NCBI GenBank assembly: GCA_902500715.1
Contig: CABVRO010000001.1
Span: 1-64,000, forward strand
Direction of reading: 5' to 3'
Source: an uncultured Nitrospira sp.
GTDB lineage: Bacteria; Nitrospirota; Nitrospiria; Nitrospirales; Nitrospiraceae
Length of the DNA stretch: 64,000 nucleotides
Below are positions 51,740 through 57,366 of the stretch, in pieces; within the stretch, counting starts at the first letter, position 1; every line of letters starts with the position of its first letter. Below the pieces are notes generated by a model. That model searched no databases. It saw only the letters and a program-made list of their open reading frames with translations, and was not told where the DNA came from. The position numbers were made by a program, and so were the translations under genes.

Positions 51740-52993
51740 GTGTATCGCAAGATCGTTCTCGACAACCGGTTGCGCATTGTGGCCGAACTGCTCCCGACGT
51801 TGAAGTCCGTCACGATCGGCATATGGGTCAACGTCGGATCGCGCGATGAGCAGCCGGGGGAAGAGGGGCTGTCTCACTTCCTGGAGCATATGTTCTTCAA
51901 GGGAACGCGCAGCCGCACGGCGACGCAGATTTCCCGCGAGATCGATGCGCTGGGGGGTGAGATGAATGCGTTCACCACCCGAGAAACGACGACCTTTTAT
52001 GTGAAGGTGCTGGATCAACAGTTGGAGGCAGCGTTGGAGCTGCTCTCGGATCTGTTCTACCGGTCCCGGTTCGAATCGAATGAAGTCGAAAAAGAAAAGC
52101 AGGTGGTGCTCGAAGAGATTCGGATGGTCCAAGACGATCCGGAGGATCTGGTTCAAGAGCTTCACATGAAGCACACGCTCGGAAGCCATCCGCTGGGCAG
52201 ACCGATCCTGGGGAAGGCTCCGAGAATTCAAGCCCTGGGACGGAACGATCTGGTGTCCTATGTTGGTTCGCACTATGATCCAGAGCGCACTGTCGTCGCG
52301 GTGGCCGGCAACTTTACCTGGCGCCGCCTGGAACAGCTGCTGGCGCGGTATTTTTCTGACTCGCACAAGGGTGTGGCCGCCCAACCAAGCCGTCGCCCGC
52401 CTGAAGTGAATGGTGGGGTGCTGGTCAAACGTAAGGCTCTTGAGCAGGTTCATCTGTGTTTGGGCCTTCAGGGTCTGAGTGCCGGGCATAAGGATCGATA
52501 TGCGGCGCATGCGCTCAACGGGGTGTTGGGCGGGAGTGTGAGCTCGCGCCTTTTTCAGGAGGTGCGGGAAAAACGTGGCCTCGTGTACTCGATCTATTCG
52601 TTCTTGTCCACTTACTCCGATGGCGGAATGACCACGGTGTATGCGGGTACGCGCCCGAAAGAGGTTGAGCGTGTCGTGGAAGTTGTCTGCCGTGAGCTGA
52701 AGAAGCTCCGCACGCATGGAATCGATGCAAAAGATTTGGCCCGGGTCAAAAACCAAATGAAGGGCAGTCTGATGCTCAGCCTGGAGAGTTCGCACAGTCG
52801 CATGAGCAAGTTGGCGAAGGACGAACTGACGCAAGGCAATCACGTGTCGCTCGAGCAGATGATTGCGGAAATCGATCGCGTGACGACCGATCAAGTATAT
52901 CGGGTGGCGCAAACGTTACTTGACCAGCGCTGTCTTTCCATTACGGCACTTGGCCCGATCCCGACCAAGAGTCTGCAGTCGTTTGCGTCATAA
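51740..52993 (+). CDS. M16 family zinc peptidase
   Basis: A 417-residue pitrilysin/processing-peptidase-like protein. It has the inverted zinc motif HFLEHMFFKG (H-x2-E-H) with the distal Glu in LGGEMNAFTTRETTTFYVKVL, and a C-terminal half (about 210-410) of the same fold with RGLVYSIYSFLSTYSDGG. It is usually the last gene of the pnp cluster in bacteria and is thought to process small peptides. The start is GTG at 51740, 6 bases after pnp. Confidence 0.9.
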   Translation: MYRKIVLDNRLRIVAELLPTLKSVTIGIWVNVGSRDEQPGEEGLSHFLEHMFFKGTRSRTATQISREIDALGGEMNAFTTRETTTFYVKVLDQQLEAALELLSDLFYRSRFESNEVEKEKQVVLEEIRMVQDDPEDLVQELHMKHTLGSHPLGRPILGKAPRIQALGRNDLVSYVGSHYDPERTVVAVAGNFTWRRLEQLLARYFSDSHKGVAAQPSRRPPEVNGGVLVKRKALEQVHLCLGLQGLSAGHKDRYAAHALNGVLGGSVSSRLFQEVREKRGLVYSIYSFLSTYSDGGMTTVYAGTRPKEVERVVEVVCRELKKLRTHGIDAKDLARVKNQMKGSLMLSLESSHSRMSKLAKDELTQGNHVSLEQMIAEIDRVTTDQVYRVAQTLLDQRCLSITALGPIPTKSLQSFAS

Positions 52994-53364
52994 CCGGTCA
53001 ATGGCAGGACGCCTGTGAGGAGGGCGGAAGGGCCGGTCGGGCCAAGAGTTGCGGTGATGTGAATGCCATTGCAGGGCTAACTATTTGATACGTTGCTCAT
53101 TTTGACGTGCGAATGATGGCTGAGTTTTGGCAAAACATTTTCTTGACACGTTTCGTGGATTTAAGTACCATGGCGGCGTTTTCATCCTATAAGTCTGAAT
53201 TAATTTCGGTTGCATTACAGGGGAAGGTAAGCAGAGAGAAAGGGGGTGTGCATCGCACTTCCTCCTCCTAGCGCGTTCTCCGGATTTTTGTTTTTTGCGC
53301 TCTTTTTTTGGATACTGTGATTCAACGGTTCTCTGGTCATCATTTTTCCAAGGAGGGTAGGGTT
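52994..53364. other. Intergenic leader region before the secreted-protein pair
   Basis: About 370 bases without a gene, AT-richer than the surroundings. It contains a good promoter (53143-53171) and a long untranslated leader of about 185 bases ending in a strong SD (AAGGAGGG). The leader has T-rich runs near 53288-53310 but no riboswitch fold that I can recognise. Confidence 0.6.
53143..53171 (+). promoter_or_regulatory. Strong sigma-70-type promoter for the secreted-protein pair
   Basis: A consensus TTGACA (53143-53148), a 17-base spacer and TACCAT (53166-53171). A transcription start near 53178 would give a long leader before the ATG at 53365. Confidence 0.65.
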
Positions 53365-53877
53365 ATGAATAGGGTCGGAATTCTAGCCGCACTTGCAGTC
53401 TCCTCCGTTGTCGGCTTGTTGACCGCCGGTGTCTCGATGGCGGCCGACGCTCCAGCCGGGGGCGGACCGAGCGAAGTTACGACGGGCAGCGGAAAGTTTT
53501 TTAAGGGCGAGACCACCAATACCCTGAAGGGTCGGGTGTGGTCGCAATGGGCAGACAATCCTGATACCGAATTACTCTTCGGCATCCAGTACTGGAACAC
53601 CGGTGATCCGGCTTCCGGTGAGGGTGGTGGCCGCTCTTCTACGCAAATGGATGTGAAGCCGCCGGATCCTTTGTTTACCTGCTGCGGTTGGGGCTTCACC
53701 GGTGGTACGGACAAAAACAATCCTTACGCCGGTTGGTATCATGCCGCGACCACAGTCCGTTTGTCTGTGAAGGATAAGAGTTTGATGGATCAAATCATCA
53801 AGGCATCGCAGGAGCTTGTGGCGATGGAAGTAACTCTTGATGGTCGGACCATTACCGGATTCAAGGTCTTGAAATAG
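53365..53877 (+). CDS. Secreted protein of unknown function, first of a pair
   Basis: A 170-residue protein with a signal peptide (LAALAVSSVVGLLTAGVSMAADA). The mature part has a Gly-rich start, LFGIQYWNTGDPASGEGGGRSS, an unusual double Cys (FTCCGWGFTGGTDKNNPYAGWYHAATTVRLS) and a C-terminal VAMEVTLDGRTITGFKVLK. ATG at 53365 follows AAGGAGGG by 8 bases. It is behind a strong promoter and is followed by a second exported gene with an equally strong SD, suggesting abundant periplasmic or surface products. No family recognised. Confidence 0.7.
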   Translation: MNRVGILAALAVSSVVGLLTAGVSMAADAPAGGGPSEVTTGSGKFFKGETTNTLKGRVWSQWADNPDTELLFGIQYWNTGDPASGEGGGRSSTQMDVKPPDPLFTCCGWGFTGGTDKNNPYAGWYHAATTVRLSVKDKSLMDQIIKASQELVAMEVTLDGRTITGFKVLK

Positions 53878-53937
53878 AATTTATACGCGAGGCGACATTC
53901 TTGAGACTTTTTTGTCTTCTTTAAGGAGGATGTGATT

Positions 53938-54612
53938 ATGAAGCTTCAAAAGCAGGGGTGGACCTTTATGGCTGCCGTGGCTTTGGTGGTGGGTTTTGCC
54001 TCCACTGCGCTGGCCATCGAGGCGTTCCAGGAGCGATTCGAGTGGGGAGACCTGAGCAAGCCCACTACGCTGCAGGGGCGGGTCATCATTCTGGATCCAT
54101 ACGATGAAGCGGTCTGGCTCAACATTGCCGTGTTCGGCGGCAACGCAGAGAGCGGATTATTCTGGCAGAGAATTCACCCAGGGAAAAACCTCAAGTTCTA
54201 TCCTGCGGACAAGACTGTGTGGGAACAGCTGAAGTCCATGGCGCGTCCGCATTCTGGGCCGGCTGCAGCGAAGGAAGTTCCGCCGGGTTCCCCGACCACC
54301 TTGGTCGAGTTTGTGGCCCAGGAAGTCGAGCAGAATCGTCGCGTGATTTCGTCAGTCAAGAAGTTGGCCGACAATGCCGGCGAAATGGGCAAGCCAAAGA
54401 GCATCTCGTCCCTACGTTTGAAGGAATGTGAAGGGAAGACGGAAGTGGACGCTCCTTGTCATGCGGCTAAGACTATGCTGAACACGTCGCCGAAGTCTCC
54501 GGATGGAGATAAGGTATTGATGCAGTACGATGTGTTGTTACCCAATGGCAAGCCGCTTGCCAACCTGATTCCCTGGACTGCCAAGTACAATCAGGGCGGT
54601 GGACATCGCTGA
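53938..54612 (+). CDS. Secreted protein of unknown function, second of the pair
   Basis: A 224-residue protein with a signal peptide (MAAVALVVGFASTALA). The mature part begins IEAFQERFEWGDLSKPTTLQGRVIILD, reads AVWLNIAVFGGNAESGLFW, and has LKECEGKTEVDAPCHAAKTML, two Cys that could form a disulfide (C-x9-C-H, not a c-type heme motif). ATG at 53938 after TTAAGGAGGA. It ends in an intrinsic terminator. Function unknown; probably acts with the preceding protein. Confidence 0.7.
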   Translation: MKLQKQGWTFMAAVALVVGFASTALAIEAFQERFEWGDLSKPTTLQGRVIILDPYDEAVWLNIAVFGGNAESGLFWQRIHPGKNLKFYPADKTVWEQLKSMARPHSGPAAAKEVPPGSPTTLVEFVAQEVEQNRRVISSVKKLADNAGEMGKPKSISSLRLKECEGKTEVDAPCHAAKTMLNTSPKSPDGDKVLMQYDVLLPNGKPLANLIPWTAKYNQGGGHR

Positions 54613-54641
54613 GAAATAGAAGGTCATTGGCCTGAAGTGAG

Positions 54642-54675
54642 AAGGCGGCATTCCGAAAGGGATGCCGCCTTTTTA
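54642..54675 (+). terminator. Intrinsic terminator after the secreted-protein pair
   Basis: A long stem (AAGGCGGCATTCC with GGGATGCCGCCTT) over a GAAA loop, followed by TTTTT. The A-run on its left side means it could also serve the convergent mutS transcript. Confidence 0.9.
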
Positions 54676-54717
54676 CTTGCGCCAGCGAGGGAAGAACTGT
54701 CTAGGTCGGGATGTGAG

Positions 54718-57366
54718 CTATTCCTTTAGCAGCCGTTGTTGCAGCGCAGCAAGCCGATTGAGCGCATCGAGGGGAGTCATGGAGAAAAGATCCATTTGGC
54801 GAACTTCCTCAAGCATAGGATGAGGCGCAGGGAGCGTGGCATCAAAGTGAAGCGACTGCTGGTTCTCCTGCACTGGTCTTCCGGATGACGACGAGGACTC
54901 AAGTTGAGCCAGGACGGACTTGGCCCGGTGTATCACCTGATCGGGGAGACCTGCTAGCTGAGCCACATGAATTCCGTAGCTCCGATCGGCGCCCCCTCGA
55001 ATAATCTTGCGCAGAAACAGCACCTTCCCGTCACGTTCCTGTACCGCAACGCAATAGTTCGTAATCCCTTCCCGTAGACTCTCCAATTGCGTCATTTCAT
55101 GATAGTGAGTCGCGAAGAGCGTGCGCGCGCCGAGACGCTGAGGATCCTGGATGTATTCTGCAATGGCCCAGGCAATGCTCAGCCCGTCATAGGTGCTCGT
55201 GCCGCGTCCGATTTCATCCAGGAGGATCAAGCTGCGAGGTGTAGCGCAGTTGAGGATATGGGCTGATTCCGTCATCTCAACCATGAAGGTGCTCTGGCCA
55301 CCTGCGAGATTGTCGGATGCTCCGACTCTGGTGAAAATGCGATCAGTCAGCCCGATCCTGGCTTCCGTGGCGGGGACAAAGCTTCCCATCTGCGCCATCA
55401 ATGTAATCAGAGCGACCTGTCGGAGGTAGGTGCTCTTCCCGGCCATATTGGGGCCGGTCAGAATGTGTAGCCGGCTGGTAGTTAGATCCAGATGGGTATC
55501 GTTCGGGATAAATCCGCCGGAGAGATCCAGGCGTTCGACGACCGGGTGTCGTCCTTGAACAATATGGAGTCCCTCACCCTCGTCGACGGTTGGTCGCACG
55601 TAGCGATTGAGCGCGGCGGTTTCCGCAAGGGCGGCGACTACGTCAAGGGTGGCCAATCGTCGGCTGATCTCCTGAAGGCGGGCTGTTTCTGAAGCGAGTT
55701 GGGTCCGGAGCTGTTCGAACAGTGCTTGCTCCAGGGCCGTCAGTTTTGTGTCGGCTCCCGTGACCCGCTCTTCGAGTTCTTTTAACTCGGCGGTCATGAA
55801 GCGCTCGGCATTGACCAGGGTTTGCTTGCGAATATAGTCGGGTGGCACCTTCCCGAGATTGGCCTTGGTGAGTTCAATGTAGTACCCGAAGATTTGGTTA
55901 TATCTGATTTTGAGCGATTCGACGCCGGTGCGTTCGCGTTCTTTGGCTTCCAGGCCGGCAATCCAGCCTTTGCCCTCCCGGCTTGCCTTGCGAAGCTCAT
56001 CGACCTCGGGGTGGTAGCCGCTCTTCAGGATGCCGCCGTCGCGAATCGATACGGGCGCCTCCTGCTCTATGGCTCCTTCGATCAACTCGTAGAGATCCTG
56101 GGCGTTATCCCATGACGACATCAGGTCGGCGATGAGTGGAGAATCGAGCCCGGACAATTCTGCCTGAATGGCGGGGAGCGAAGAGACGGAAATCTTCAGT
56201 GCGAGGACATCGCGCGGATTGGCAACTCCGAGGGATATGCGGCTACAGAGACGGGAAATGTCCTGGACGGTGCGCAACGCCGTTCGGAGGCGAACTCGTG
56301 CGTCGATCTGTCGTTTGAGTTCGTCAACGGCTGTCAGTCGGACCTCGATTGCCGCACTGTTGACCAATGGCCGTAGGAGCCACTCACGGAGTAACCGGCT
56401 TCCTATGGCGGTGACAGTGCGATCCAGAACACTCAATAATGTATAGGTGGACTGGTACGACGATTCCTCCGCACGACCGACAGGCCTGACGAGTTCCAGG
56501 TTACGGATGGTGACGCTGTCCAGGTGCATAGCGTCATGATCCTGTCTCACGCGTGGTGGGCGGATATGGTCAAGCGGCGCCGACGGTTGGGTCTCTCTGA
56601 CGTAGCGTAACACTGCCGCCCCGGCCTGGATGCCCTGTGTGAGCCGGTGGCAGCCGAAGGCTTCCAGGGAATGCACATGAAACTGTTCTTGTAGCGCGAT
56701 GCGACCTTGGTCGAGATCGAACCAACTCGCAGGTTGTGTGCAGCATCGGGGGCCGGTCAGATCGGCGGTCCACTGCTGTTCGTCCGGGGAGAGATCTTCG
56801 GGAAACAGCAATTCTTTTGGTTCAAGGCGCGCCAGTTCGTCCCGCAGGGCGGCCTTTGCCTGGATCCCATGAAACTCACTCAGCCAATAGTCTCCGGTCG
56901 AGACTTCAAGCGTCGCGAGGCCATAGGAGGACTCTTTGCGTCCGGTCCCAGCGGATCGAAGGCGCACGGATACCGCGGCCAGCACGTTGGATTCCGTAGA
57001 GGGAAGGAATTCGCTATCGATCAGTGTGCCGGGGGTATAAAGCCGGACGACTTCCCTGCGTACCAGACCCTTGGCCAGTTTGGGGTCTTCGACTTGCTCG
57101 CACAGGGCGACGGTTCGTCCCGCACGGAGGAGTTTCGCGATGTAATTGGTGGCGGCGTGATAGGGGACACCGCAGAGAGGGATCGGGGTCCCGCTGGATT
57201 TATCGCGTGATGTCAGCGCAATGGAGAGAAGTTTGGACGCCTCCACCGCGTCTTCCTGGAACATTTCATAGAAATCGCCGACACGGAAAAAAAGGATGGC
57301 ATCGCGATAGGCCTGTTTGATGTCGCGATATTGCCGCATCAAGGGAGTGTCGTCGGCGTTACCCAT
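54718..57366 (-). CDS. mutS: DNA mismatch repair protein MutS
   Basis: An 882-residue MutS1. Mismatch-binding domain at the N-terminus (MRQYRDIKQAYRDAILFFRVGDFYEMFQEDA, with the Phe-x-Glu of GDFYEMF), connector, core/lever and clamp domains, and an ATPase with Walker A TGPNMAGKSTYLRQ and Walker B LILLDEIGRGTSTYDGLSIAWA. It recognises mismatches and recruits MutL. Complete, no missing motif. Its start overlaps the lapA-like gene by 8 bases. The mutS-lapA-tsaE-nnr order on this strand suggests one operon. Confidence 0.96.
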   Translation of the reverse strand: MGNADDTPLMRQYRDIKQAYRDAILFFRVGDFYEMFQEDAVEASKLLSIALTSRDKSSGTPIPLCGVPYHAATNYIAKLLRAGRTVALCEQVEDPKLAKGLVRREVVRLYTPGTLIDSEFLPSTESNVLAAVSVRLRSAGTGRKESSYGLATLEVSTGDYWLSEFHGIQAKAALRDELARLEPKELLFPEDLSPDEQQWTADLTGPRCCTQPASWFDLDQGRIALQEQFHVHSLEAFGCHRLTQGIQAGAAVLRYVRETQPSAPLDHIRPPRVRQDHDAMHLDSVTIRNLELVRPVGRAEESSYQSTYTLLSVLDRTVTAIGSRLLREWLLRPLVNSAAIEVRLTAVDELKRQIDARVRLRTALRTVQDISRLCSRISLGVANPRDVLALKISVSSLPAIQAELSGLDSPLIADLMSSWDNAQDLYELIEGAIEQEAPVSIRDGGILKSGYHPEVDELRKASREGKGWIAGLEAKERERTGVESLKIRYNQIFGYYIELTKANLGKVPPDYIRKQTLVNAERFMTAELKELEERVTGADTKLTALEQALFEQLRTQLASETARLQEISRRLATLDVVAALAETAALNRYVRPTVDEGEGLHIVQGRHPVVERLDLSGGFIPNDTHLDLTTSRLHILTGPNMAGKSTYLRQVALITLMAQMGSFVPATEARIGLTDRIFTRVGASDNLAGGQSTFMVEMTESAHILNCATPRSLILLDEIGRGTSTYDGLSIAWAIAEYIQDPQRLGARTLFATHYHEMTQLESLREGITNYCVAVQERDGKVLFLRKIIRGGADRSYGIHVAQLAGLPDQVIHRAKSVLAQLESSSSSGRPVQENQQSLHFDATLPAPHPMLEEVRQMDLFSMTPLDALNRLAALQQRLLKE

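Follow-up and report, generated by a model that had tools for sequence, protein, structure and literature searches.

A conserved transcription unit for two predicted exported proteins beside mutS in NXR-carrying Nitrospirales

The DNA analysed here (the window) is a stretch of 64,000 nucleotides from an uncultured Nitrospira sp. It contains a unit of about 1.5 kb that is flanked by an M16 peptidase gene and by mutS and has two genes, designated P1 and P2 (Table 1). The unit had been described in a first-pass annotation, and its promoter, leader, two Shine-Dalgarno (SD) sites, two signal-peptide proteins and terminator were all recovered at the positions given there. P1-P2 is thus a dedicated transcription unit of two predicted exported proteins without a recognised domain. 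The reading frames are 60 nt apart. Export is predicted from the N-termini, which by eye resemble Sec signal peptides whose end is of the A-x-A type; the same inspection revealed no lipobox or membrane anchor in either protein. Both frames are under purifying selection, with 818 of 1019 differences at third codon positions for P1 (15 pairs) and 589 of 783 for P2 (9 pairs). The genome of the window belongs to the same genus as N. defluvii, in which the P1 counterpart is 97% identical and the gene order is unchanged (FP929003.1, locus L102).

Table 1. Features of the P1-P2 locus, with positions in the window.
Feature	Position	Strand	Basis or remark
M16 peptidase gene	51740-52993	+	name from recognised product
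-35 hexamer TTGACA	53143..53148	+	identical in 15/15 genus-level rows, window included; 16/16 f2/f3 loci
-10 hexamer TACCAT, 17-nt spacer	53166..53171	+	identical in 15/15 genus-level rows, window included
5' leader, 193 nt, 46% G+C	53172..53364	+	sequence
Shine-Dalgarno AAGGAGGG of P1	53350..53357	+	precedes ATG 53365
P1, 170 aa, predicted exported, probable OB-fold	53365..53877	+	low-confidence model
P1 signal peptide, 26 aa	53365..53442	+	sequence, by eye
P1 segment between predicted strands 2 and 3 (residues 78-123), with FTCCGWGF and NPYAGWY	53596..53733	+	
Shine-Dalgarno AAGGAGG of P2	53923..53929	+	precedes ATG 53938
P2, 224 aa, predicted exported, OB-fold-like core	53938..54612	+	
P2 signal peptide, 26 aa	53938..54015	+	sequence, by eye
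P2 OB-fold-like core, residues about 40-145	54055..54372	+	Foldseek SilF match; VIA Z 8.6
P2 C-terminal extension with C164-x9-C174 and YDVL-PNG/PGG motif	54373..54609	+	
Intrinsic terminator: hairpin 54642-54671 plus T-run	54642..54676	+	folding energy; family counterparts
mutS	54718-57366	-	name from recognised product

Single pattern matches were not above chance: two promoter-like matches were found in 2.8 kb where 1.4 were expected from shuffled sequences, and the terminator at 54642 was missing from the output of a consensus scanner. The elements are regarded as real because they are conserved across loci. Among the family loci (related loci, all from the window's own family) the promoter motif was present upstream of P1 in 71 of 76, compared with 0 of 76 after shuffling. 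An SD site preceded P1 in 79/79 and P2 in 70/77, and a terminator-like hairpin followed P2 within 160 nt in 72/74, against 4 after mononucleotide shuffling. The terminator region of the window (54636-54679) has a folding energy of -32.9 kcal/mol (z -9.3), which none of 200 shuffles equalled. In the 15 genus-level rows the region upstream of the promoter is 48% conserved, while the two hexamers do not vary. Outside the family, TTGACA-17-TAGCAT was found 100-246 nt before P1 in all 16 loci (12 of f3 and 4 of f2; f1 to f4 denote families of the order), of which 14 meet a stricter motif; 15 of these 16 loci have an SD site. The same promoter type is thus found in all three families, and the promoter is therefore as old as the unit. 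Conservation in related genomes had been proposed as a check on the annotation, and the unit came through it, its elements recurring across the family loci and its promoter also in f2 and f3.

The leader has a lower G+C content than the window as a whole (46% vs 59%). Conservation is about 90% among members of the genus; between genera the leader diverges, and its middle segment is absent in some loci (e.g. L119, L123 and L125). No Rfam family matched the leader at its gathering score; four matches fell below that score, all of them on the terminator region and the best at E 0.033. The alifold energy of the 15 genus leaders was -32.1, against -32.05 for the best of 20 column-shuffles, and no consensus structure was obtained in 54 other leaders. 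A riboswitch or other structured RNA was rejected for now on the basis of the sub-threshold Rfam matches and of an alifold energy close to that of shuffled columns.

The promoter motif at fixed spacing was searched in 13 genomes. It occurred without mismatch only at the P1-P2 locus in eight, with one mismatch at that locus in three, and was absent there within two mismatches in two (G040 and G048). A recurring site with two mismatches (TTGACA, 17 nt, TACTAT, with CAGTAC) was followed in four genomes (L299, L287, L301 and L291), where it stands before a gapA-like (GAPDH-like) gene, and since the same promoter type precedes this gene, the P1-P2 promoter looks to be of a housekeeping-like type. 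A regulon shared with NXR was not supported, as the motif lies mostly at P1-P2 only and was not found in the two nxrA stretches of N. defluvii (L201 and L244).

High expression of the two proteins, which the first-pass annotation had put forward, was not borne out. Stretches of N. defluvii served for the codon statistics in place of the window genome, in which no match to ribosomal protein L2 was obtained, probably because the assembly is incomplete. By codon adaptation P1 and P2 fall at the 69th and 92nd percentiles of 220 ORFs of N. defluvii, with nxrA at the 99th, and at the 81st and 84th percentiles in the window. Random 170-codon stretches reached the N. defluvii value of P1 in 39% and that of P2 in 13% of the draws, and the measure discriminates weakly, with many ribosomal protein genes scoring no higher. 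These moderate values do not support codon adaptation as proof of high expression. Neither expression values for the pair nor a mention of the pair itself was found in the passages searched of PMC8115632, PMC6606698, PMC8387239, PMC8407350, PMC10579370 and PMC12342949. The text of the N. moscoviensis transcriptome study (PMC6606698) names NITMOv2_2496, an exported unknown, among the top-expressed genes. By its rough chromosome position it is probably neither P1 nor P2, and among the tags beginning 40 to 43 that text gives only nxr genes and a nuoF gene.

The first-pass annotation had seen no recognised domain in either protein. At the level of sequence families this stands: Pfam and NCBIfam gave no match at E 10 for P1 and P2 of the window, a CusF/SilF family model included, and no significant match was found among PDB sequences (best E 0.16). 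Pfam searches with 31 aligned sequences of each protein yielded scattered weak matches, none of them to a CusF model; the best, LpqV (E 9.8e-4, in one of the 31 P2 sequences), was taken as chance, like the other matches confined to a single member. At the level of the fold the statement may have to be qualified. AlphaFold models were built on 69 (P1) and 68 (P2) sequences and are of low confidence, with a mean pLDDT of 47.4 and 52.7, respectively; both show the strand order b-b-b-a-b-b, which is that of an OB-fold. The P2 model, which has extra short helices between the strands, follows the five-stranded OB order b1-b2-b3-a-b4-b5. SilF was its top match both in Foldseek (E 4.7e-3, probability 1.00) and in a second fold comparison (Z 8.6, rmsd 2.8, 76 aligned residues). 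In the P1 model the strands span about residues 52-62, 69-77, 124-135, 153-159 and 162-169 and the helix residues 138-149. Here too SilF came first in the second comparison (Z 7.2, rmsd 2.9, 76 aligned), a Z under 8 that may reflect a common arrangement only, but Foldseek returned no significant match (best E 0.08, with OB proteins mixed with antibody chains). The models thus suggest an OB-fold fairly well for the P2 core and weakly for P1. Homology between P1 and P2 was considered; hhalign gave 23% only.

Remote-homology and structure searches had been proposed in the annotation as a further check; they brought up no strong match to a known family, and the nearest to P2 are the periplasmic OB-fold metallochaperones SilF and CusF (PDB 8bhu, 8bbz and 2vb2). 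These are small OB barrels that the models of P2 and, less closely, P1 resemble. They differ from the pair in sequence (about 10% identity) and in their conserved neighbours, in the long stretch that P1 has between strands and in the C-terminal extension of P2. CusF and SilF have a conserved soft-metal site of His, Met and Trp, whereas P2 has no order-wide site of His, Cys or Met.

The latter follows from a residue comparison in 56 sequences (40 of f1, 4 of f2 and 12 of f3), in which mature P2 showed no His, Met or Cys conserved across the three families together. C164 of P2 is present in 40/40 f1, 0/4 f2 and 0/12 f3 sequences, C174 in 40/40, 4/4 and 0/12, and H175, the His following C174, in 8/40, 0/4 and 0/12; the pair C164 and C174 is therefore found in f1 only. 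The CC pair of P1 (FTCCGWGF) occurs in 40/40 f1 and 12/12 f3 sequences and in 0/4 of f2, where three aligned rows have GG in its place. No His or Cys of P1 is near-invariant across the 56 sequences; M141 (40/40 f1, 4/4 f2, 11/12 f3) and M154 (37/40, 4/4, 11/12) come close to it. The cysteines are not order-wide and therefore do not represent a shared core function. A disulfide within f1 is possible. One between the partners was rejected, since f3 keeps the CC of P1 and lacks both C164 and C174 of P2. The metal or disulfide chemistry that the first-pass annotation had read from these motifs is thereby weakened; apart from M141 and M154 of P1, it may be at most lineage-specific.

Of 100 relatives, 91 have P1 and 93 have P2. 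A sample of 295 genomes of the phylum included 95 with P1, all of which are among its 98 listed members of the order; the 15 genomes listed for other orders of the class gave no match, nor did any other genome of the sample. For P2, nine of these 15 genomes were covered by the profile of its small relatives described below, which also finds P2, and gave no match. A scan of genome contigs gave 170 relatives, of which the best 80 were labelled Nitrospira, Nitrospiraceae, Nitrospirae or Nitrospirota, bar one Nitrosospira. Four genomes of f4 (73-96% complete) gave no match to P1, P2 or NxrA. Across the 100 relatives, the phylum sample and the best 80 matches of the contig scan, and apart from the one Nitrosospira label, the pair was not seen outside the nitrite-oxidising Nitrospirales.

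Of 80 related loci, 77 contain both P1 and P2, which are always adjacent, with 39-86 nt between them in 76 loci and 214 nt in the remaining one; in the other three the stretch ends at P1. In the 31 loci with a wider surrounding, mutS is directly next in 29 (L074 ends, and L098 has about 4.6 kb between), and the M16 gene directly precedes the unit in 27, the other four being the f2 loci. Three families have P1-P2 between M16 and mutS. In the f2 loci L078, L079 and L091, genes of a two-component-type regulator and a ClpX-like protein were seen by eye before P1. A genome of another order (G316, L268) has the row infB, rbfA, truB, rpsO, pnp, M16 and mutS but no P1-P2; in this row rbfA and truB are separated by one extra gene, and M16 and mutS by one minus-strand gene. 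The contigs G063:C18, G069:C47 and G089:C154 break off just past mutS, at the place expected for P1-P2, and absence in these three genomes therefore cannot be read from synteny; G089 was for this reason discarded as a natural loss of the pair. In trees of P1, of P2 and of both, f3 forms a clade (12/12, support 1.0). Rooting on f2 as outgroup did not give f1 as a clade (52 tips for 40), and it also makes the row for f2 uninformative.

Co-occurrence with NXR was assessed with NxrA of N. defluvii as query (E 1e-60 in the 100 relatives and E 1e-20 in the 15 genomes of other orders), as TIGR03479, tried as NXR marker, found none of the 100 relatives above its cut-off. NxrA was present in 77 of the relatives, and 76 of these 77 have P1 or P2, the sole exception being G028, which is 66% complete; in the order the pair is thus found practically wherever NxrA is, yet the pattern has one origin. 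No NxrA was detected at E 1e-20 in the 15 class members from other orders. P1 or P2 is also held by 17 of the 23 NxrA-negative relatives, several of which are 95-100% complete and three of which belong to the window's own genus. Many nxrA matches stop at contig ends, and the missing nxrA in these 17 genomes is probably an assembly effect. Six relatives gave no match to NxrA, P1 or P2: the four f4 genomes, G089, which has a contig end at the site, and G054 (72% complete). P1-P2 is not encoded near the nxr genes, the two nxrA matches in N. defluvii (G023) being about 0.86-0.89 Mb away. An NxrA-like stretch full of stops in G020 (C17:24181-27226) is apparently a decayed copy.

These data agree with the text of Kop et al. 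2025 (PMC12342949), in which the families NS-4, UBA8639 and Nitrospiraceae have NXR and UBA2166 is the sole family of the Nitrospirales without it. Our f2, f3 and f4 would fit NS-4, UBA8639 and UBA2166, respectively. The same text describes 140 'diagnostic' genes, many of them unknown, that mark the NXR-carrying clade. In the genomes searched here P1-P2 show the same kind of distribution; the pair may be among the 140, and its distribution may thus already be in print.

The clade-matched distribution makes P1-P2 a candidate part of the conversion of nitrite to nitrate. We tentatively favour, as the leading though still doubtful explanation, a periplasmic OB-fold pair that was acquired on the branch of the nitrite oxidisers and probably serves NXR. 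The ancestor of the NXR carriers in the order would have received the unit in its M16-mutS interval, and the unit would have stayed beside mutS since then. Judging from their adjacency, P1 and P2 would work as a pair in the periplasm, which Nitrospira NXR is suggested to face in the text of PMC8387239. Their distribution would be consistent with an accessory factor (for assembly, stabilisation or as a scaffold) of periplasmic NXR-based nitrite oxidation. Binding of a protein or ligand could then occur via the OB barrel and the aromatic-rich stretch of P1, and not via an order-wide His/Cys metal site. The link of P1-P2 to NXR is inferred and comes from one origin on one branch, as would apply to any gene gained there.

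That a single branch carries the signal also leaves room for clade-specific envelope housekeeping, in which P1 and P2 would be factors for folding or stability in the periplasm or outer membrane whose only tie to NXR is an origin on the same branch. This is somewhat unlikely and ranks close behind the NXR-serving reading. The distribution follows descent, as envelope housekeeping would have it, and the promoter type shared with the gapA-like gene makes the unit look constitutive; against this, genomes as small as 1.7 Mb (G034, 98% complete) and as large as 4.8 Mb retain the unit, and the four f4 genomes, which belong to the order and gave no NxrA match, gave none to the unit either; both findings fit a metabolic role slightly better. 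A location beyond the outer membrane, as cell-surface or biofilm-matrix proteins for aggregation, is unlikely: Nitrospira grow in flocs, and the signal peptides, as recognised by eye, would suit such proteins, as would the conserved P1 stretch rich in aromatic residues, but neither protein has a lipobox or membrane anchor by eye. A soft-metal chaperone pair of the CusF/SilF kind, delivering for instance copper to NirK or oxidases, appears less likely still. In structural comparison SilF and CusF rank with the best matches of P2 and, weakly, of P1, and M141 and M154 of P1 are nearly invariant. Mature P2, however, has no His, Cys or Met common to the three families, f2 lacks the CC of P1, and the conserved neighbours are M16 and mutS.

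A more specific form of the NXR-serving reading takes P1 and P2 as partners in a heteromeric OB-fold complex, an unrecognised component of the periplasmic nitrite-oxidising apparatus specific to the NXR clade, which might, for example, assemble or array NXR as an NXR-T-like part with an unrelated fold; this reading is speculative and improbable. CxxCH is a haem-binding site, and it is found in neither P1 nor P2, both of which are predicted, with low confidence, to be mainly beta. In this they are unlike NXR-T, the tubule-inducing subunit of anammox NXR, which the text of PMC8387239 describes as a haem-binding four-helix bundle and which, as a small partner of a related NXR, may be a model for a possible role of P1-P2. 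The Nitrospirales are major nitrite oxidisers and include complete nitrifiers, according to the text of PMC12342949. With its presence in 76 of 77 NxrA-positive genomes and its lack of Pfam and NCBIfam matches, P1-P2 is a short, testable candidate. A pair that serves NXR would add a new part to one of the key enzyme systems of nitrogen cycling; otherwise P1-P2 would still be a compact genomic marker of the nitrite-oxidising clade.

The P2 core has homologues among small single-domain secreted proteins of the Nitrospirales (the A5 set, L081-L088), to which it was aligned by hhalign at 98.9% (E 4e-17); for P1 the corresponding value was 1.3%, and a relationship was rejected. The A5 profile matched 56 of 198 sampled genomes of the phylum, all of them in the Nitrospirales and mostly via P2 itself, and ten of the 56 hold a small relative of the P2 core at E below 1e-20. 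The small proteins (116-149 aa among those analysed, with an uncertain start in some) differ from P2 in lacking its type of C-terminal extension, in their sporadic occurrence and in their neighbourhoods. The latter are of at least two types, one by an ABC-F-like ATPase gene, as recognised by eye in L081, L083 and L084, and the other with a block common to L082, L085, L086 and L087.
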